From assembly GCA_016779565.1 (NCBI GenBank), contig JADHNJ010000015.1, forward strand, positions 1 to 52,702: 52,702 bases of DNA. Reading direction: 5' to 3'. Position numbers and translations under genes: made by a program. Origin of the DNA: Pseudomonadales bacterium. GTDB taxonomy: Bacteria; Pseudomonadota; Gammaproteobacteria; Pseudomonadales; Azotimanducaceae. The notes below the pieces were generated by a model that worked only from the letters and a program-made list of their open reading frames with translations, was not told the DNA's origin and searched no databases. Positions 34,569 to 51,439 of this stretch are shown piece by piece. The stretch's first letter is position 1. Each line of letters begins with the position of its first letter.

Positions 34569-37500
34569 TTAATGAAAATCTCGAGATCTTGTGTCGAAGT
34601 TAACCAGTAGTTCGCTTAGATCTTCTATGTGGCCAGCAACGACATGAATCACACTACCTTGTCGCTCAAGGATACCTTTAATACGAAGCAACCGCCCTCT
34701 TAAAATGGCCGCTCTAAAACGACTGAGTAGTGTGTTAAAAATAACCACGTTGATGTTGTGGGTCTCATCTTCAAGAGTCATAAAAATGATGCCAGATGCG
34801 GTTGAAGGTTTTTGTCTACCCGTAACCAAACCGGCGACTTCAATAAATCGACCATGACGAATACCGGGTAAATCCTTAGCAACCGTTGTCTTTAGTAAGA
34901 CCTTACTGGTTGTTCTTAATATCGCCATGGGATGGCGCCCTAAGGTGAGTCTCAGACTATTATAATCAGCTCGTGTGTTTTCAATTTCTGTGGGGGCTGG
35001 CAGCAGCGCAGGCTGAGATGGCGGCTCGATGCCTTTGAATAAAGGTGGTGTGTCGCCAAGACCCGCAGCAAACCAATGAGCTTGGTGGCGGTTGCCCGTG
35101 ATGACCTTGCAGGCGCCTGCCTCGATTAGGCAATCAATATCTTTCGTATCGAGATTAGCAGCTTGTTGTAGAGCATCGAGGGTGGATAGTGAGGTTGTGT
35201 GTCTAGCCTGGATCAAACGTGCTGCGCCACCTTCAGAGAAGCCTTTGATTCGATTAAATCCAAGACGAATGGCTTGAGGTGAGGGGCGCTGCTCAGGATT
35301 TAATGAGGTTGGATTCGCCTCAAGGGTAGACTCCCAAAGACTATAGCGGATATCGACAGGATGTATTTCTATATGATGTCGTTTCGCATCTTGTATTAAC
35401 TGTGAAGGGCTATAAAACCCCATGGGCTGGCTATTGAGTAGGCTGCAATAAAACGCTGCCGGTTCATGTTGCTTTAGCCACGCCGATATATAGACTAGCA
35501 GCGCAAAACTGGCGGCGTGCGATTCTGGAAAGCCGTAGTCACCAAAACCTTTGATTTGCTCAAATAAACGCTGTGCAAACTCTAAATCATGACCTCGATC
35601 AAGCATGCCTTGAATGAGTTTGTCTTCAAAATGACCGAGGCCGCCTTTACGTTTCCACGCAGCCATAGCGCGGCGCAATTGATCTGCCTCGCCAGGTGTG
35701 AACCCAGCTGCGACAACCGCAAGCTTGATTACCTGTTCTTGGAAAATGGGAACGCCTAAGGTTCTAGATAGCACCGATTTGACGGCGTCGTTGGCGTATT
35801 CAATGTGTTCTGCGCCCTGCCGTCGACGCAAATAGGGGTGCACCATTTTTCCTTGAATTGGCCCCGGCCTGACTATCGCGACCTGAATCACTAGGTCGTA
35901 GTAATTCGCTGGCTTAAGTCTTGGGAGCATTGCCATTTGAGCGCGGGATTCCACCTGGAAAACACCGATACTGTCGCCTTTTTGCAGCATATGATAGGTA
36001 TCTGGGTCTTCTTTCGGGATCGATGCCAGGGTTAAAGGTTTGATGCGAAAGTCGTTGGCAAGGTCGATAGCTTTTCGGATGGCTGTAAGCATGCCTAAGG
36101 CAAGAATATCAATTTTAAGTAACCCGAGTGCCTCTAAATCGTTTTTATCCCATTGAATAATGGTTCGATCAGGCATTGCTGCATTTTCAATAGCAACCAG
36201 TTGCGATAGCGGACCACTTGAGATGACAAAACCACCAACATGCTGTGAGAGATGTCGCGGAAAACCGAGGAGAGTATCAACTAAGGTGATATATCGCTCG
36301 ATCATTGGGTTGTCGCCACTGACGCCGGCTTCTTCAAAACGATCAACTAAGGCGCTTTTTTTATCCCACCAAGATAGGGTGCGGGCAAGTTTGTCGATTA
36401 GGGTTGGCTCAAAGCCGAGGGCTTTACCCACATCTTTGATTGCGCTTTTAGGTCGATAGGTGACAACCGTGGCAGCCAGTGCTGCCCGCTCGCGGGAATA
36501 TTTCTTGTACAAGTATTGGATAACTTCTTCTCTGCGAGCATGCTCAAAGTCGACATCGATATCTGGCGGCTCATCTCTTTCTTTTGAAATGAATCGTTCG
36601 AACAGTAAGTTGACACGGGCAGGGTCGACTTCAGTAATCTCAAGGCAAAAACAGACGGCGCTGTTGGCTGCCGAACCTCTGCCTTGGCATAAAATGCCTT
36701 GAGCCTTAGCAAACTGGACAATGTCAAATACGGTCAGGAAATAGTATTCGTAGTGCAACTCTCGGATGAGATCGAGTTCTTTTTTGATTTGCACTGCAAC
36801 AGCATCAGGGATACCTTCTGGCCAACGGCTGTTTGCACCAGCCCAGGTCAATTGGGATAGGTAAACGCTTGGTGTCATGCCCGTTGGGACGAGTTCTTCG
36901 GGATATTCATATCGGAGCTCGTCGAGTGAAAATGTACAGGCTTTAGCAATTTTTAAGGTGTTTTGTCGCCATCGCTCGGGATAGGTGGCTGCTAGATTTT
37001 GCCGGGAACGTAGATAGCGTTCGGCATTGGTTTGCAACTGTCTGCCAGCAGCGACGATGGAAATATTATTGCGAATGGCAAATATCGTATCGAGTAAAGG
37101 CTTACGATGTTGAGCATGCATGTAAACGTCACCACAGGCGACAACAGGTAAGCTTAAACGAGAAGCGACAGATTCAACCTTGGCTTTGACCTCAAGATCA
37201 AAACCGTCCATTACCAGCGCGGCGCCCAGCCACAACTGTTGGCCAAATATCATTTTAAGCTGGTTCACTGCTTTATCATCAAGGAGCGATGTTTGGTGGT
37301 CTATGAGCCAGATGCCGAATAGATCTTGGGTGCTATCTGGAAAATCATTAATAGTGATTTGATATTGACCTTTTAAAGCACGTCGCCGACCTTGACTGAT
37401 GATTTGACAAAGCTGGCCATAGCCCCGTCTATTTTTTGCGAGCAAAACCAACCTTGTGCCATCTTTAAGAGCAAATGAGCTACCGATAATGAGTTTTAAT

Positions 37501-37718
37501 TGGTGGGATTTTGCGGCTACATGGGCTTTGACCACACCGGCCACTGAGCATTCATCAGTGATAGCAAGCGCGGTGTATCCTAATTCTGAAGCACGCTGAA
37601 CCAGCTCCTCTGGATGTGATGCACCTTTTAAAAAAGAATAATTACTTAAGCATTGAAGCTCGGCGTAAGCAGGTATCAGGGATGGGCGCGGTCTAGAAAT
37701 TTCGATGCTGGCGGTCAC
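34569..37718 (-). CDS. dnaE2: error-prone DNA polymerase DnaE2 (ImuC)
   Basis: DnaE2 is the translesion polymerase of the SOS mutasome, working with ImuA and ImuB. The 1049-residue protein starts with a PHP domain (about 10-210) opening YAELQCLSNYSFLKGASHPEE. The catalytic aspartates are Asp388 and Asp390 in PPDIDVDF, and KIDILALGML lies further on. A C-terminal OB-fold (about 935-1010) ends the protein. This length and the short C-terminus separate it from replicative DnaE1. The start is a GTG at 37718. A LexA site about 100 bases upstream predicts damage induction. Unlike the common imuA-imuB-dnaE2 operon, it is 11 kb away from imuAB here. Confidence 0.95.
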   Translation of the reverse strand: MTASIEISRPRPSLIPAYAELQCLSNYSFLKGASHPEELVQRASELGYTALAITDECSVAGVVKAHVAAKSHQLKLIIGSSFALKDGTRLVLLAKNRRGYGQLCQIISQGRRRALKGQYQITINDFPDSTQDLFGIWLIDHQTSLLDDKAVNQLKMIFGQQLWLGAALVMDGFDLEVKAKVESVASRLSLPVVACGDVYMHAQHRKPLLDTIFAIRNNISIVAAGRQLQTNAERYLRSRQNLAATYPERWRQNTLKIAKACTFSLDELRYEYPEELVPTGMTPSVYLSQLTWAGANSRWPEGIPDAVAVQIKKELDLIRELHYEYYFLTVFDIVQFAKAQGILCQGRGSAANSAVCFCLEITEVDPARVNLLFERFISKERDEPPDIDVDFEHARREEVIQYLYKKYSRERAALAATVVTYRPKSAIKDVGKALGFEPTLIDKLARTLSWWDKKSALVDRFEEAGVSGDNPMIERYITLVDTLLGFPRHLSQHVGGFVISSGPLSQLVAIENAAMPDRTIIQWDKNDLEALGLLKIDILALGMLTAIRKAIDLANDFRIKPLTLASIPKEDPDTYHMLQKGDSIGVFQVESRAQMAMLPRLKPANYYDLVIQVAIVRPGPIQGKMVHPYLRRRQGAEHIEYANDAVKSVLSRTLGVPIFQEQVIKLAVVAAGFTPGEADQLRRAMAAWKRKGGLGHFEDKLIQGMLDRGHDLEFAQRLFEQIKGFGDYGFPESHAASFALLVYISAWLKQHEPAAFYCSLLNSQPMGFYSPSQLIQDAKRHHIEIHPVDIRYSLWESTLEANPTSLNPEQRPSPQAIRLGFNRIKGFSEGGAARLIQARHTTSLSTLDALQQAANLDTKDIDCLIEAGACKVITGNRHQAHWFAAGLGDTPPLFKGIEPPSQPALLPAPTEIENTRADYNSLRLTLGRHPMAILRTTSKVLLKTTVAKDLPGIRHGRFIEVAGLVTGRQKPSTASGIIFMTLEDETHNINVVIFNTLLSRFRAAILRGRLLRIKGILERQGSVIHVVAGHIEDLSELLVNFDTRSRDFH

Positions 37719-45474: not shown

Positions 45475-47382
45475 CTAGTCGTTGTCAAGCTGCAAAAGCT
45501 GGATGGGCGACCCACCGCCGGCAGCGTCCAGAACGACGATTTCAAAAAATGCGTTCGGTTGCGCTTCTATCGTCACAGGACCTGCAAGCACCGTTTTATC
45601 GTTAGGATCGGTTATCACGATTGAATAGGTATCAGGGGTTAGCCCGAACTGGCCCGTCGATAACGGTTGAATGTCATTGCCGGCAGGATTGGCGTCGTCT
45701 AAGGCAATATCTGACCGTAATATATAAATATCAACAAGCGGGGTTGATGGTGCAGCATGTAAAATTGACAAACGTGCCTCAGTGGCAACGGGCCTCACAG
45801 CCTCAGTGGCGATGGCGCCAGAGATATCATCGCCAAGTCCGGTGATCGTTAAACGCTGATACTGGCCATTAGCCAGCGTCAGTGCATCTGTATAGAGCTC
45901 TGTGCTCGGATCATTGGCAACCGTTGCTGTAACAATGATTCGATTGTTTTCGCTAGCCAAATATTCCGATATATCTCCAAATAACAAATCCTCTGCCATG
46001 AGCGTCTGCTGGGTAACAGATAGGGTTATTTCAGAGTTTTCTGTTGATACACCTAAAAGATACAAGTTGATGCTGGGGATGACGTCGGAAATTAAGTTCG
46101 TTGGTTGGCTGTAATTGATGCCGTCGATGGTGAGCAGGGCATCTTGGCTCTCAGAGACCGTCTCGAGTTGCGCAGTGGAGAGCTGAGATAAACCCAAGGC
46201 GTCGGTATCATCACTATCATCATCGTCCACGGTGATCAAAAGATCGCCTGATTGGCGGAAAGCCAACGCGGTGAGTTGGATCAAAACTTGTTCGTCATCT
46301 AGGGTGATGAGGTTTGCTGTTAACGGACCGCCTGAGCCATTGATAGCGTTAACAACAGCCTCAGCCGTATCGCCATCATCGGGAATGACAATATCGACAG
46401 TGGTATCACCGTTGGTAACGGTTAATGTACCAGAGCCGATTGCAGTGGTCCTGGTCGCGAGTGATTCTGACAGCTGGTAGGTGGCTGGCTGTGCGAGCTG
46501 CTCGACGCTGACGGTATAGGTGTTGGTAGCAGCATCGGGTTCCGCCTCGATAATTACGACTGACGGCTCACTTGAAATTGCGGTTCGTTGATAGACATCA
46601 ATGGCGGTTTGGTCGGGAATGGTATTGATGATTCTAGTGCTATTAACAAAGTCTTCGTTGGGGAAGGTGAGGGTGCCAGAAAAATTCGTATAAAGGGCTT
46701 GAACACGCCCTGATTGCGGCCCAAAAGCATCAAAAAGGACGACGATTGGTCGAATACCCGTAGATACTGAGAACGTATTTGATCGCCAGAGCACGTTGCC
46801 CTCAGAGTCGCTAGCAACGATCGATAACTGGTCTGTGCCTGCGAGTGTCAGCCGGTCGCTCAGCTCTCCGGGATTCATGGTCAAGCGCGTGATTAGCGGT
46901 GTCTCCAAGTTGGCATCACTGACCTCGATATTTATTGTGCCGCTATTACTGGCAGCATGCGCAATCAATAGCGTGGTTGTGGTATCAGTCTCGTCAGGGG
47001 GGGTGATATCTTCAATAACTTCTATGACCTGCGGGTCAGTCATAGTGCCCACTAGAATGAGCGTTTTTAGCTGATTCTCAGCGACCGACGATGTGAAGGT
47101 TGAGATCGTCTCTAACTGATTGCTTTTAATATAATTGATCGTGGTGGCGCGGTCTAAATCAGGAATGACATTGGTGACGGCGCTCATGTCGCCAAACGCG
47201 ACAGAACCAATGGATTGTTGGCCAAATTCGACGATCAAGGATGGAGAGTCATTGATAGCGTTGATAAAGCGCAGACCCCCAGAGGGCGAGGCTGCAAACT
47301 TATCGAAACCCGGATCTTCCCCGCAGGCCGTAAGCAACAAGATTAAAGCGCAAAGAGTTGTAATCAGGGACGTTTTGATCAT
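45475..47382 (-). CDS. large lipoprotein with DUF4397-like and FliD-like segments
   Basis: The 635-residue protein has a lipoprotein signal, with LLLTAC ending at Cys20 followed by Gly21, so it is predicted to be anchored in the outer membrane. Residues about 35-260 and 535-635 contain DUF4397-like repeats (LRFINAINDSPSL, LLIAHAASNSGTINIEV, LSILHAAPSTPLVDIYI). Residues about 295-460 look different. They resemble the hook-IN motifs and D2/D3 region of the flagellar cap protein FliD: GSGTLTVTNGDTTVDIVI, AVVNAINGSGG, then DALLTIDGINYSQPTNLISD and VIPSINLYLLG. No flagellar gene is nearby. The function is unknown; a surface adhesin-like role is a guess. The gene is single and leftward. Confidence 0.8.
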   Translation of the reverse strand: MIKTSLITTLCALILLLTACGEDPGFDKFAASPSGGLRFINAINDSPSLIVEFGQQSIGSVAFGDMSAVTNVIPDLDRATTINYIKSNQLETISTFTSSVAENQLKTLILVGTMTDPQVIEVIEDITPPDETDTTTTLLIAHAASNSGTINIEVSDANLETPLITRLTMNPGELSDRLTLAGTDQLSIVASDSEGNVLWRSNTFSVSTGIRPIVVLFDAFGPQSGRVQALYTNFSGTLTFPNEDFVNSTRIINTIPDQTAIDVYQRTAISSEPSVVIIEAEPDAATNTYTVSVEQLAQPATYQLSESLATRTTAIGSGTLTVTNGDTTVDIVIPDDGDTAEAVVNAINGSGGPLTANLITLDDEQVLIQLTALAFRQSGDLLITVDDDDSDDTDALGLSQLSTAQLETVSESQDALLTIDGINYSQPTNLISDVIPSINLYLLGVSTENSEITLSVTQQTLMAEDLLFGDISEYLASENNRIIVTATVANDPSTELYTDALTLANGQYQRLTITGLGDDISGAIATEAVRPVATEARLSILHAAPSTPLVDIYILRSDIALDDANPAGNDIQPLSTGQFGLTPDTYSIVITDPNDKTVLAGPVTIEAQPNAFFEIVVLDAAGGGSPIQLLQLDND

Positions 47383-47464
47383 AGCGAGGGGTTAGTCGAA
47401 TCAAGGCGGTACATTATAAGAAAAGCGGAGTTGATACCAGAAAAAAGTCTCCTATCCAAACGCC

Positions 47465-48238
47465 TCAAGTGCGCGAAAATGCATGCCGAAAGGCGATAAC
47501 GCCGGCAGAGACAGCAACATTTAAGGACTCAACCTCGTTACGCATCGGTATGCATACCAAATGATGACATGCTGCCAGAGCAGGGTCAGATAAGCCTTCA
47601 CTTTCATTGCCTAATATAAAGACGCGTCGAGGGGATTGTTCGGCAATCGATAAGGCCGCGCTACCATGACTGTCTAAACCAATGAGCGTGAAATTGTGAT
47701 TCTGTAAAGCTGCGATCGCAGTTTCGACGGTCTCACAGTGAAGGATCGTAGTTTTTAGCAGACAACCAGCGCTAGCTTTATACACTAGAGGGTCGAGTTT
47801 GGCGCTGCCTTTTTTGGGCAATATTAGGCCAGTGACTGTGGAGGCCGCGATGCTGCGTATGATCATGCCCAGGTTTTGTGGGTTAGTAACGCCATCGACG
47901 AGTAAGAATTCTTGATCGACGGCATCAAGATCAAATAAATAAGTATTGAGTTCCGCTTGATGTGGCGCAGCAATATCGATGGCGACGCCTTGGTCTTGGC
48001 GGCTATTTTTTGAAATTCTAGAGAGCGCTTGCTTAGTATGCATCTTGATGGGAATGTCGCGGCGTTGGCATAGCGATTTGATATCAGCTATGACCTGGCT
48101 TGATCGGTTGCTCGAAGCTAGATGAACACGATAAACGGTGAGTTTAGGATTGTTCAAGACCTCAAGAGTCGTGTTACGCCCGTATAACGTGATGCGCTTT
48201 TCCGCAGTAGTGATGGCTTGGTTGAACGTCGAACTCAT
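47465..48238 (-). CDS. TrmH/SpoU family RNA 2'-O-methyltransferase
   Basis: SPOUT methyltransferases of this family methylate ribose 2'-OH in tRNA or rRNA using AdoMet. The three motifs are present: NPQNLGMIIRS (119-129), ILGNESEGL (208-216) and PMRNEVESLNVAVSAG (231-246). Residues 15-90 form an RNA-binding (SpoU-substrate-binding-like) domain opening ITLYGRNTTLEVL, as in RlmB. The target nucleotide cannot be assigned. The ATG at 48238, giving 257 residues, has GGAA seven bases upstream; the open frame to 48283 is unsupported. Confidence 0.92.
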   Translation of the reverse strand: MSSTFNQAITTAEKRITLYGRNTTLEVLNNPKLTVYRVHLASSNRSSQVIADIKSLCQRRDIPIKMHTKQALSRISKNSRQDQGVAIDIAAPHQAELNTYLFDLDAVDQEFLLVDGVTNPQNLGMIIRSIAASTVTGLILPKKGSAKLDPLVYKASAGCLLKTTILHCETVETAIAALQNHNFTLIGLDSHGSAALSIAEQSPRRVFILGNESEGLSDPALAACHHLVCIPMRNEVESLNVAVSAGVIAFRHAFSRT

Positions 48239-48435
48239 GAAAAATTTCCAGCAGCGCGAATCAGATAGAGTCTTGCCCAGCAACTGAGCGCAGGAATGGA
48301 GCCAGGGGCGCTAAGCAGCCGACCCCATTCATAGTGACCAAAGTTGCGAGCATCGACTTGCTGTTATTTATGCGCAAATCCAAGAATAATCGCCATTGAA
48401 TACGGCTAATGGGCTTAAAATTATTGTCGAGCGCT

Positions 48436-48894
48436 TCAAAGCAGCGTTGTTAGTGCCTCAGCAATCGTCTCTGGCGTCTCCTGGGGCTCGAATCGCTTGA
48501 CGACTTGCCCGTCCTTGCTGACAAGGTACTTTGTGAAGTTCCAGCCGATATCCCCCGGGATGGTTGCTTTTAGCCACTGATAAACAGGGTTGGTATCAGG
48601 CCCATTGACATCGCTTTTGGCGAACATCGGGAAGTTGACATCAAATCTCTCTTGAGCAAAGGCTAGAATGTCAGCGTTGCTTGCAGGTTCCTGGGCGCCG
48701 AACTGATTACAGGGAAATCCAAGAACCGTTAAACCATCAATCTCGTTATGTAAGGTACGCAGACCTGCGTACTGAGGAGTTAAACCTCACTGACTCGCTA
48801 GATTCACAATGAGTAGCGCTTGATCGCGATACTCAGACAGCGAGATTGTTTCGCCAGTAATGGTTTCTACTTTTATATCATAAAGGTCAGTCAT
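48436..48894 (-). CDS. glutathione peroxidase, probable selenoprotein (in-frame UGA = Sec36)
   Basis: Read from the ATG at 48894 through one TGA (48787-48789), this is a 152-residue glutathione peroxidase. The TGA is codon 36 and falls exactly where the catalytic Cys or Sec lies: NLASQ, UGA, GLTPQYAGL, where E. coli BtuE has SKCGLTPQY. The rest of the catalytic tetrad is intact: Gln68 in FGAQEP, Trp118 and Asn119 in GWNFTKYLV. GFPCNQFG (59-66) and NFPMF are also present. There are no frameshifts or other stops. The resolving Cys of thioredoxin-dependent Cys-type enzymes is absent, as is usual for Sec-type enzymes. An AGAGA ribosome-binding site precedes the start. A SECIS-like hairpin lies 14 bases after the UGA. 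The alternative is a pseudogene with one nonsense mutation, which I consider less likely. Confidence 0.85.
48755..48772 (-). promoter_or_regulatory. SECIS-like hairpin of the glutathione peroxidase mRNA
   Basis: On the minus strand GTACGCAGGTCTGCGTAC forms a perfect 7-bp stem closed by a GGUC loop, starting 14 bases after the UGA. Its tip, GCAGGTCTGC, is the same ten bases as the tip of the E. coli fdhF SECIS as I know it. The loop is 21 bases from the UGA, against 18 in fdhF. The bulged U that E. coli SelB also contacts is not present; the helix here is unbroken. Confidence 0.75.
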
Positions 48895-49040
48895 GAGAAT
48901 CTCTTTAGTCATTGGGTCTTTTACGGCTGAGCCGAGGGCGAACGTCACAGTACAGGCATAAGGCCGTTGAGAACTCGACGCTCTAAAGTATTGTCACCCA
49001 ATCAATGGGGCTTTGCTAGCCCAGAACAGGGTCAATATGG

Positions 49041-50561
49041 TTAAGAGAACAGGCCATGTAAATACCAGCGATGAGTAAGAGATCGATAAAACAACCAATA
49101 AACCTGACGCTTTTTGTAGCGACAAATATAGTAGTCGCGATTTTGACCATCACCATCCCACCAGGCGGCGTTGATTCTTTCAGGCCCTTTGATGAGTTCA
49201 AAATCAATATGTTTCATGGGGTTGATCTGTTTTTCAAGGCGCTGAGGCTTTTCGAAAAGAAAGACAGGCCGGGTTGCCCAGTCTGTTGCTAAGAGATCTG
49301 GGGTTAATCTTGACTCAGCTGCTAAATCAACTCGTATCCCGTGTTTTTCAGGTCTGTGGTCATTCCCTAAAGTGATACCGAAACATGTTTTGACGGGCAG
49401 GCGCGTTTGCAACAGATTCAATAAGTCATTTGCCTGTTTCTCTCGGGAGGGATCCCGCTGCTGCTGATCTACAGCTGCTTGCGGCGCTACGTCATAGGTG
49501 CGTTGCGGCATCGATTCGAAAAGATTTTTAGAAAGGGGGCTGGCGGCTTTGAATTGTTTGGCACGCAAGATCAATTCATCAATCTCTCCGGCGATTTTTA
49601 TCTGTGCCAGTTTGATGTCCGCAAGCATTAAGAACAGATTTAAATCATTGTCAGGTGCGGCAAGTTTGATCGATAGCTCAGCGCGAAGTTTGCCACGATA
49701 GTTAAGCGCTATCACAAAGCTCTGAATGTATTTTTGGTGCGTCGTTAAGAAGTTGCTGAGATCTTTAAGCAATCTTTTTAATGGAAAAACCAGTGACTGC
49801 AAGTGTTCAATAGGATCTAGAAAGAATAAGCGTGCTTCAAATTCAAGGCCTGTTTTGATGAAGTCTTGCGGGTCCGGCCGATTGCCGAGTAGTCGGTCTA
49901 AATGTTCGATAAAAGGTTTACCAAACCGCTTGCTGATACCTGGACGGGGTAAATCTAGAAGTTGTTTCAGCGTTGTAACCCCCATATTCAGTAATTTTAA
50001 TACCGCCTCTTTGGGTAGCATGAGTTCGTTTAACTGGCGGTCAGCGAGAGCGTGCTCAGGCAAGGCGTGATGGTTGTCTGGAAATCCGAGTTCAGCGCAA
50101 ACTTTTGATGCCAATGGCGTTTGACTGGCGCAGAGGATGGCCTGATAACCCAACTCGGTAAGTTGCTCTTGGATTTGAGCCTTAAGATTTTTTAGACCTG
50201 AAAACAGCGTCAAACTCGTTGAGACTTCTAAAATAAGATGTTGCTCACCGTGAATCGCTATATGCGGGGTGAACCGATATAGCCATTGAGCAATATGTTT
50301 GAGTACATGATGTTCCTTACCGAGGTCACGGTCGATGCAAATCAGTGCATCGCAAAGGGCGTAGGCCTGACTAAATAGCGTACCTACTGTTAGACCTGTC
50401 GCTGCGGCGCTGTTAGACAAAGCTATGATGCGCTGATTTTGTACAACCGCGATGGGGGGATTCATGTCAGTGCGAGCATCAATATCATCCCGGTGAAAGG
50501 CTTCTAGCGGCAATTGAGGTAGATAAATGCTCAGCCATATTTTGCCATCAAAGCGAGGCAT
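49041..50561 (-). CDS. imuB: mutasome Y-family-like protein ImuB
   Basis: ImuB is a catalytically inactive Y-family polymerase relative that bridges DnaE2, ImuA and the beta clamp during SOS mutagenesis. The 506-residue protein opens WLSIYLPQLPLEAF, the usual ImuB start. It has a helix-hairpin segment (MGVTTLKQLLDLPRPGISKR) and a little-finger domain, and it ends with the ImuB C-terminal module (GPERINAAWWDGDGQNRDYY and YRSLTHRWYLHGLF). The metal-binding acidic residues of active Y-family polymerases are not seen. Its ATG shares one base with the imuA stop. Confidence 0.93.
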   Translation of the reverse strand: MPRFDGKIWLSIYLPQLPLEAFHRDDIDARTDMNPPIAVVQNQRIIALSNSAAATGLTVGTLFSQAYALCDALICIDRDLGKEHHVLKHIAQWLYRFTPHIAIHGEQHLILEVSTSLTLFSGLKNLKAQIQEQLTELGYQAILCASQTPLASKVCAELGFPDNHHALPEHALADRQLNELMLPKEAVLKLLNMGVTTLKQLLDLPRPGISKRFGKPFIEHLDRLLGNRPDPQDFIKTGLEFEARLFFLDPIEHLQSLVFPLKRLLKDLSNFLTTHQKYIQSFVIALNYRGKLRAELSIKLAAPDNDLNLFLMLADIKLAQIKIAGEIDELILRAKQFKAASPLSKNLFESMPQRTYDVAPQAAVDQQQRDPSREKQANDLLNLLQTRLPVKTCFGITLGNDHRPEKHGIRVDLAAESRLTPDLLATDWATRPVFLFEKPQRLEKQINPMKHIDFELIKGPERINAAWWDGDGQNRDYYICRYKKRQVYWLFYRSLTHRWYLHGLFS

Positions 50562-51439
50562 TATGAGATGGTAGTTACCGGTCGAAAACTGGATTTGGTG
50601 GTCAATAAAGGCTGCTGTGAATCTGCGGTGATAGCTAACTTAGGCAGCGGGGTCGCTTCATTGATTGAGACTGGTTGCGGGTTTGACGAGTTACTTAAAG
50701 GTGTTACAGCTTGGAGATGACAATCAAGGCCTAAGGGCAGGGTTAAATTAAACGGGCTTAAGGGCCAGCCGCCAGGACGTTTAAAGATCTCAACCTGCAG
50801 TTGGTGCTGGCGACTATCGTGTTCAGGGGTTGCTATCGGAGTTGATGACAACGCGATCCGTAATGGAGCGGGTGAAGGCAGTTGCTGGACTGCAGCTTCT
50901 CTGAAAAGAATGTTCCAAGTTTGTGTTGACTTACTGGCAACTTGAAGTCGTTTGATCGCCTGTGGCCGGGTGTTGTGCTCGGCCCACAGCAGGACCGCGC
51001 TGCAAGCATGTGACTTGATGCATTGTTCGGCAGCCCATAAGGCTTCTGCAGTTGAGCTTGGTTGGATAATGAGTATGCGATCGAGTTGGATGCCGATGGC
51101 TGCTAGAGCCGGTGCATAAGGCATGTGGGGAGGTGCAATCCAGACAATCCACTTCCACTGTCGTTGACTTAAACATGCCAAGGCGGGAGCGATAAGCTGG
51201 AACTCGCCGATACCGGGTTGTTTTACTAAAAATTCAGTCGTGCCAATTGTAGGCCAGCCGTTATGAGGTAGTGCTTGGTCTAGTCGGCGGTAGCCGCTGG
51301 GTAAATAACCGGCCTGATGCTTAGATGTATGGCTTGCCCGCCACAGTGCTTTATGACTTAAAAGAGATTGAATTGCACGATCGCTATCAAGAGCTTGGGG
51401 CCGAGGTGAATGATTGTTATCAGTGATTTGCGATTTCAT
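50561..51439 (-). CDS. imuA: translesion synthesis-associated protein ImuA
   Basis: ImuA is the RecA/SulA-like accessory protein of the mutasome. The 292-residue product has the ImuA opening LPSGYRRLDQALPHNGWP followed by IGTTEFLVKQPGIGEFQL (core near 45-85). It continues through IVWIAPPHMPYAPAL and a degenerate RecA-like core without a complete Walker A, as is normal for ImuA. The C-terminal 60 residues are of low complexity. The ATG at 51439 is preceded in frame by a stop five bases upstream, so the start is well bounded. It overlaps imuB by one base. The nearest LexA site is 346 bases upstream. Confidence 0.9.
   Translation of the reverse strand: MKSQITDNNHSPRPQALDSDRAIQSLLSHKALWRASHTSKHQAGYLPSGYRRLDQALPHNGWPTIGTTEFLVKQPGIGEFQLIAPALACLSQRQWKWIVWIAPPHMPYAPALAAIGIQLDRILIIQPSSTAEALWAAEQCIKSHACSAVLLWAEHNTRPQAIKRLQVASKSTQTWNILFREAAVQQLPSPAPLRIALSSTPIATPEHDSRQHQLQVEIFKRPGGWPLSPFNLTLPLGLDCHLQAVTPLSNSSNPQPVSINEATPLPKLAITADSQQPLLTTKSSFRPVTTIS

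Follow-up and report, generated by a model that had tools for sequence, protein, structure and literature searches.

A glutathione peroxidase gene that carries a UGA codon in place of its catalytic residue may encode a selenoprotein or may simply be broken, and this is the question raised by one locus of a Pseudomonadales bacterium. The locus lies in a stretch of 52,702 nucleotides (contig JADHNJ010000015.1 of assembly GCA_016779565.1), the whole of which is referred to here as the window. An earlier sequence-only reading had placed at 48436-48894 a 152-codon glutathione peroxidase gene, intact apart from a TGA at codon 36, and had interpreted this codon as selenocysteine (Sec). The presence of the in-frame TGA is confirmed and the Sec interpretation is supported by comparison with related sequences; the gene very probably encodes a GPX4-like glutathione peroxidase whose UGA at codon 36 is decoded as Sec.

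The gene and its surroundings

The coordinates given earlier are correct, and the gene occupies the minus strand (48894..48436), which the earlier reading had left unstated, running from an ATG through 152 codons, among them a single in-frame TGA, to a TGA terminator, with the frame intact on both sides of codon 36 (Table 1). A second in-frame ATG is located six codons 5' of this start, and a plus-strand reading of the same interval was rejected for its many stops. Codon 36 lies within the motif NLASQ-U-GLTPQY, and the homologues with Cys codons in this column bear out its assignment to the peroxidatic position. The read-through product matches Pfam GSHPx at 126.8 bits (cut-off 27) over profile positions 1-108 of 108, in a query in which the terminal TGA was also translated as a residue, and it matches solved glutathione peroxidase structures, including GPX4 and GPX7. 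U36, Q68, W118 and N119 complete the catalytic tetrad, as had been claimed, and the last three are unchanged in every homologue aligned. A plain ORF list breaks the gene into a 53-aa head and a 63-aa tail started by ATG; this tail, which gene callers were expected to report alone, is a real ATG-to-stop ORF.

Table 1. Features of the glutathione peroxidase locus, in window coordinates
Feature	Position	Strand	Remarks
Glutathione peroxidase gene (GSHPx, PF00255)	48436..48894	-	152 codons + TGA stop, one internal UGA
Codon 36, UGA, peroxidatic position, NLASQ-U-GLT	48787..48789 (48789..48787)	-	aligned to Cys codons in 83/144 homologues
bSECIS-type hairpin GTACGCA-GGTC-TGCGTAC	48755..48772	-	apical loop GGUC at 48765..48762
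Gln68, catalytic tetrad	48691..48693	-	Gln in 144/144 rows
Ala80, column with Cys in Cys-type enzymes	48655..48657	-	Cys in 78/83 Cys rows, 0/61 Sec rows
Tail ORF, 63 aa, ATG to stop	48436..48627	-	as given by plain ORF list
Trp118 and Asn119, catalytic tetrad	48538..48543	-	invariant, 144/144 rows
ImuB-like gene (IMS, PF00817), upstream neighbour	49041..50561	-	adjoins the gene in 11/12 congener loci
SpoU-family rRNA methyltransferase, downstream neighbour	47465..48283	-	adjoins the gene in 12/12 congener loci

Vertebrate GPX4 is one of the close known comparisons, its chains being matched by phmmer, and we take both proteins to share the Sec, Gln, Trp, Asn tetrad and to lack a resolving Cys and an oligomerisation loop. 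The present gene differs from GPX4 in having its SECIS in the coding region and in its association with bacterial Sec machinery, and its product is a few residues shorter at two or three places in the alignments, which are with proteins designed from a GPX4 structure. The enzyme is probably monomeric.

The only congener locus without the ImuB-like neighbour is a stretch that ends early (L020), and among the other 17 loci examined ImuB and/or SpoU stand beside the gene in 8. Because these neighbours are kept in congeners, the gene looks old and, within the genus, vertically inherited. Plasmid records, searched at the DNA level, yielded no match. The order ImuA-ImuB-GPx(UGA)-SpoU-DUF4397, at 45475-51439 of the window, is kept in two congeners (G003 and G008), where the name ImuA is our presumption, its Pfam match being weak. 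A DnaE-type polymerase gene is located at 34569-37718 of the window, and the Imu genes are mutasome-like.

The UGA codon and the hairpin that follows it

A search of 97 genomes, including that of the organism itself (hereafter the own genome, G000), identified glutathione peroxidase matches in 81 and exactly one internal TGA in 44; in all of the latter but one, a fragment in G010, codon 36 itself could be read (43 genomes). Among the 14 relatives of the same genus, exactly one TGA is present in all 12 full-length copies, so the extra stops in close relatives that the sequence-only reading had named as the sign of a pseudogene were not seen. G010 holds a split copy with the TGA in its 5' piece, and no match was found in the genome search of G013 (72% complete). 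The nearest relative is 79% identical over the 152 codons. TGA-containing copies occur in 43 of the 61 genomes of the same family and in 1 of 36 outside it (G063, which also has a stop-free copy), and this shows that Sec, not Cys, is the usual form in this bacterial family.

To compare individual positions, 150 homologous loci were pooled, comprising 30 loci of the 97-genome search, the best 80 named loci of a GTDB scan with at least 576 confirmed stretches, and 40 stretches that represent some of the other matches of the 97-genome search. Six exact duplicates were removed, five of which paired a family genome with a named record, namely OM182 bacterium MED-G24 (G041; Gammaproteobacteria incertae sedis per NCBI), Pseudomonadales (G016, G023, G051) and a Gammaproteobacteria MAG (G026). 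In the remaining 144 unique rows codon 36 is TGA in 61, TGC in 54 and TGT in 29, a ratio that does not estimate the frequency of Sec since the sample was picked by nearness to this gene; the rows are also related to each other, so that row counts are not independent. Among the TGA rows are records with the titles Acidimicrobiales, Actinomycetes, Myxococcota, Deltaproteobacteria and Alphaproteobacteria, and such MAG titles may be wrong. For the part of the gene downstream of the UGA, only 5 of 11 pairs gave a defined dS, which was saturated, and no useful dN/dS was obtained.

A hairpin with a 7-bp stem and the loop GGUC begins 14 nt after the UGA; its loop begins 21 nt after the UGA with G at the first two places, and the 22-nt stretch containing it folds at -9.5 kcal/mol. 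These values agree with the constraints given in the bSECIS passage of PMC13188914 (upper stem of 4-16 bp, loop of 3-9 nt that lies 16-37 nt after the UGA and opens with G at its first two positions, MFE of -7.5 kcal/mol or lower). The six outer pairs are complete in 58 of the 61 TGA rows versus none of the 83 Cys rows, and all seven pairs in 50 versus none, while the four loop letters of the TGA rows are GGTC (53), GGGT (7) or GGGC (1). Residues 43 and 46 of these rows occur in two combinations only, Ala/Arg (55 rows) and Thr/Cys (6 rows), and since the switch is a paired change at one hairpin pair, from G-C to A-U, the RNA therefore dictates the protein sequence; the six Thr/Cys rows fall in two tree clades and thus count as two events, not six. 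As a single sequence the fold is unremarkable (z -1.39, with 14 of 200 shuffles as stable), and random synonymous versions form the six pairs at a rate of 2.8% with uniform codon usage and 6.0% with that of the Cys rows. The case for the hairpin is built on the pair counts because RNAalifold gives a weak consensus, with 5 pairs and -4.3 kcal/mol for the 61 Sec rows as against 0 for the 83 Cys rows. Over most of the family both the UGA and the hairpin have been retained.

The bSECIS of E. coli K-12 fdhF has the identical ten-base apical core, GCAGGTCTGC, with its loop 18 nt after the UGA, and it sits in a different host protein; the helix described here is uninterrupted, whereas the fdhF hairpin presumably contains a bulged U. 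Seven GCAGGTCTGC sites were identified in the own genome by a search for other selenoproteins that covered this loop only, and the glutathione peroxidase site is the only one preceded by a TGA that interrupts an otherwise long open frame. By analogy with the E. coli pathway, SelB, together with GTP and Sec-tRNA-Sec, would bind the mRNA hairpin, and Sec would be delivered at the UGA instead of termination by RF2.

Selenocysteine machinery and competing explanations

The strict Rfam search identified tRNA-Sec in 1 of the 14 congeners, and a model built from family sequences (R1), for which two alignments containing the G006 tRNA were set aside because of a misaligned D arm, identified a divergent tRNA-Sec in 12. 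A lack of tRNA-Sec in the genus was thus rejected as mostly a limit of sensitivity. With R1 no tRNA-Sec was found in G010, G012 or the own genome, and neither the selAB stretches nor the window gave a match; a search by anticodon-loop pattern proved far too unspecific. The R1 scores of the genus range from 47 to 54.5 bits, mostly 48.6, and the family member G054 scores 105. ARAGORN called 11 of the 12 as SeC with anticodon TCA and the twelfth (G001), nearly the sequence of the G014 SeC, as Lys. Read from their sequences, these tRNAs have an acceptor/T arm of the 7+5 kind and one additional linker base. Forms of the 7/5 type, Gammaproteobacteria included, are already described in the relevant part of PMC5330540. 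Since strict Rfam misses the divergent tRNA-Sec, and ARAGORN calls one Lys, Sec users of the genus could be scored as non-users. The twelve genes are loci L137-L148 (for instance L145, positions 1502-1594), of which strict Rfam missed 11.

Across the 14 congeners, selA was found in 10, selB over the cut-off in 9, tRNA-Sec in 12 and selD over the cut-off in 12, with one selD fragment, and six (G001, G002, G005, G008, G011, G014) have all four genes together. The selA and selB genes adjoin, while tRNA-Sec and selD share a contig in 7 of 12 (G001, G003, G004, G006, G007, G008, G013), at distances of 0.3 to 8 kb, and share none in G002, G005, G011 and G014; in G009, which has tRNA-Sec, the profile search did not find selD. 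These assemblies often have a gap at selAB, as G003, G004, G006, G007 and G054 lack selA and have tRNA-Sec. Two of these, G003 (93% complete) and G007 (96%), contain tRNA-Sec, selD and the UGA-containing gene, and neither selA nor selB over the cut-off was found in them. Over all 97 genomes, selA passes the cut-off in 35 of the 44 with the TGA gene versus 18 of the 53 without (Fisher p 1.2e-5, ignoring relatedness). Of 16 genomes with a selD match over the cut-off (L286-L301), 15 have it within an open frame of 726-777 aa, against a model of 311 positions, which suggests a fused second domain.

The own genome (2.41 Mb in 85 contigs, 80.9% complete) gave a different picture, since profile searches found in it neither selA, nor selB or selD over the cut-off, nor tRNA-Sec. 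Its Rfam tRNA-Sec matches of 31-43 bits were called Leu, Cys, Trp, Leu, Phe, Ser and Leu by ARAGORN; its selB matches (27-95 bits, far under the cut-off of 242) were taken for other GTPases, and its selD match (41.6 bits, cut-off 125) lies within the range of the relatives' sub-cut-off second match. The four genes whose search had been proposed as a check are present in sister species and were not found in the own genome, and this is not the absence from a complete genome that had been named as refutation, because the assembly is 80.9% complete. As selA and selB adjoin and tRNA-Sec often shares a contig with selD, at least two loci would have to lie in the part that the assembly misses; the chance that both fall in the missing 19% is about 4% for two independent loci and less for three. 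Such a double gap is unlikely but not strange, given that G003 and G007 also lack selA and selB.

These gaps bear on the explanation, improbable though it is the most serious rival, that the lineage uses Sec and this species has recently lost the machinery, so that its gene would end at codon 36 as a young pseudogene. Only G000, G032 and G041 among the 44 TGA genomes are without both selA over the cut-off and tRNA-Sec, and since a selA fragment of G032 falls narrowly short of the cut-off and G041 has selD, the own genome is alone in yielding none of these genes. Against a loss stand the incompleteness and fragmentation of the assembly, the relatives without selA that still have tRNA-Sec, and the state of the gene itself, which is free of any second lesion, forms a perfect hairpin, keeps every residue of the tetrad and has the 79% identity to its nearest relative noted above. 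The missing tRNA-Sec would also suit decoding of the UGA as Cys or Trp by another tRNA, through a code change or a suppressor, which is very unlikely: a bSECIS-type hairpin would then be needless, this same gene also terminates at a UGA, and 11 congeners have a tRNA-SeC with anticodon TCA. A sequencing error or random nonsense mutation (TGT or TGC to TGA) in a Cys-type enzyme, to which the bare TGA and the occurrence of Cys homologues in the same order lend their only support, is refuted and has a negligible probability, as 61 unique sequences have this TGA in common, the others having Cys, and no Cys row has the full set of six outer hairpin pairs; the sequence-only reading had likewise judged a chance mutation improbable. 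Decoding as Sec is thus the preferred reading of codon 36.

The resolving cysteine and the history of the clade

In Cys-type glutathione peroxidases a second Cys resolves the sulfenic acid, and we take column 80, by yeast numbering, to be its position. The bacterial Cys-type enzymes belong to the same family and share the tetrad, with Cys instead of Sec; Cys80 is present in 78 of their 83 rows and the six-pair hairpin in none, whereas column 80 of the 61 Sec rows holds Ala (56) or Val (5) and never Cys. With Ala at residue 80, the protein studied here lacks the resolving Cys of the thioredoxin-dependent 2-Cys enzymes. Because this Cys is missing, a one-Sec cycle of the glutathione type is inferred, in which Sec36 would reduce peroxides and become a selenenic acid, which an external thiol, probably glutathione, would resolve in two steps, and no internal disulfide would be reduced by thioredoxin.

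A maximum-likelihood tree (midpoint root) places all 61 Sec rows in one clade of 66 rows with support of 100/98, and this clade also contains exactly the five Cys rows that lack Cys80 (L041, L176, L243, L246 and L265). Five label changes suffice on the tree, and its starred branches force at least four in all; the changes are read as one apparent gain of Sec followed by about four Sec-to-Cys reversions, with L243 and L265 sharing one. Since the Sec rows form one clade, the association of Sec with the absence of Cys80 amounts to one joint event plus reversions, not 61. The five Cys rows are probable reversions that lack the resolving Cys, and one of them, L176, retains a decayed SECIS-like hairpin, CAGGTCTTTGT.

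Bacterial Sec-containing glutathione peroxidases as such are already known, from Treponema denticola (PMC1794560), from the marine GOS set (PMC2398784) and from the relevant passages of the reviews PMC9312934 and PMC13188914, and what is new here is the members of this clade. The glutathione peroxidase row of the GOS paper reads 40, 18 and 3,287 (PMC2398784), where we take 40 to be the number of Sec sequences and 3,287 that of Cys sequences. The earlier statement that such enzymes are rare in bacteria fits these counts and fails within this family, where Sec is usual. The published GPx-like selenoprotein (WP_010957027.1; T. denticola, GOS) has the same PF00255 domain and Sec in a UxxT motif, here UGLT; compared by description with these published cases, the present enzyme has been traced through one family and also reaches records titled Acidimicrobiales and Myxococcota. 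Among the matches listed in the open literature, no title or abstract names this clade, and no glutathione peroxidase passage was found in the deep-Sep paper (PMC12013277). The order of events read from the tree has also been put forward for animals in a GPx review, which, in the passage concerned, describes bacterial glutathione peroxidases as having both Cys (PMC8614756), a statement to which the Sec clade is an exception.

On balance, the evidence leans towards a single Sec clade, represented by records titled Pseudomonadales, Acidimicrobiales and Myxococcota, in which Sec would have been gained and the resolving Cys lost on one branch, in the animal-like order, with about four later reversions to Cys that did not regain the resolving Cys, and with the SECIS hairpin fixing A43/R46 or T43/C46 only. 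At the level of annotation, the finding puts right a gene that is cut down to a 63-aa stub in a plain ORF list. Enzymes that gained Sec as they lost the resolving Cys, and Cys revertants that are still without it, provide a natural set for asking why Sec is kept and which reductant is needed, and, if the single-clade reading is true, the family would offer a bacterial replica of the animal GPX transition.
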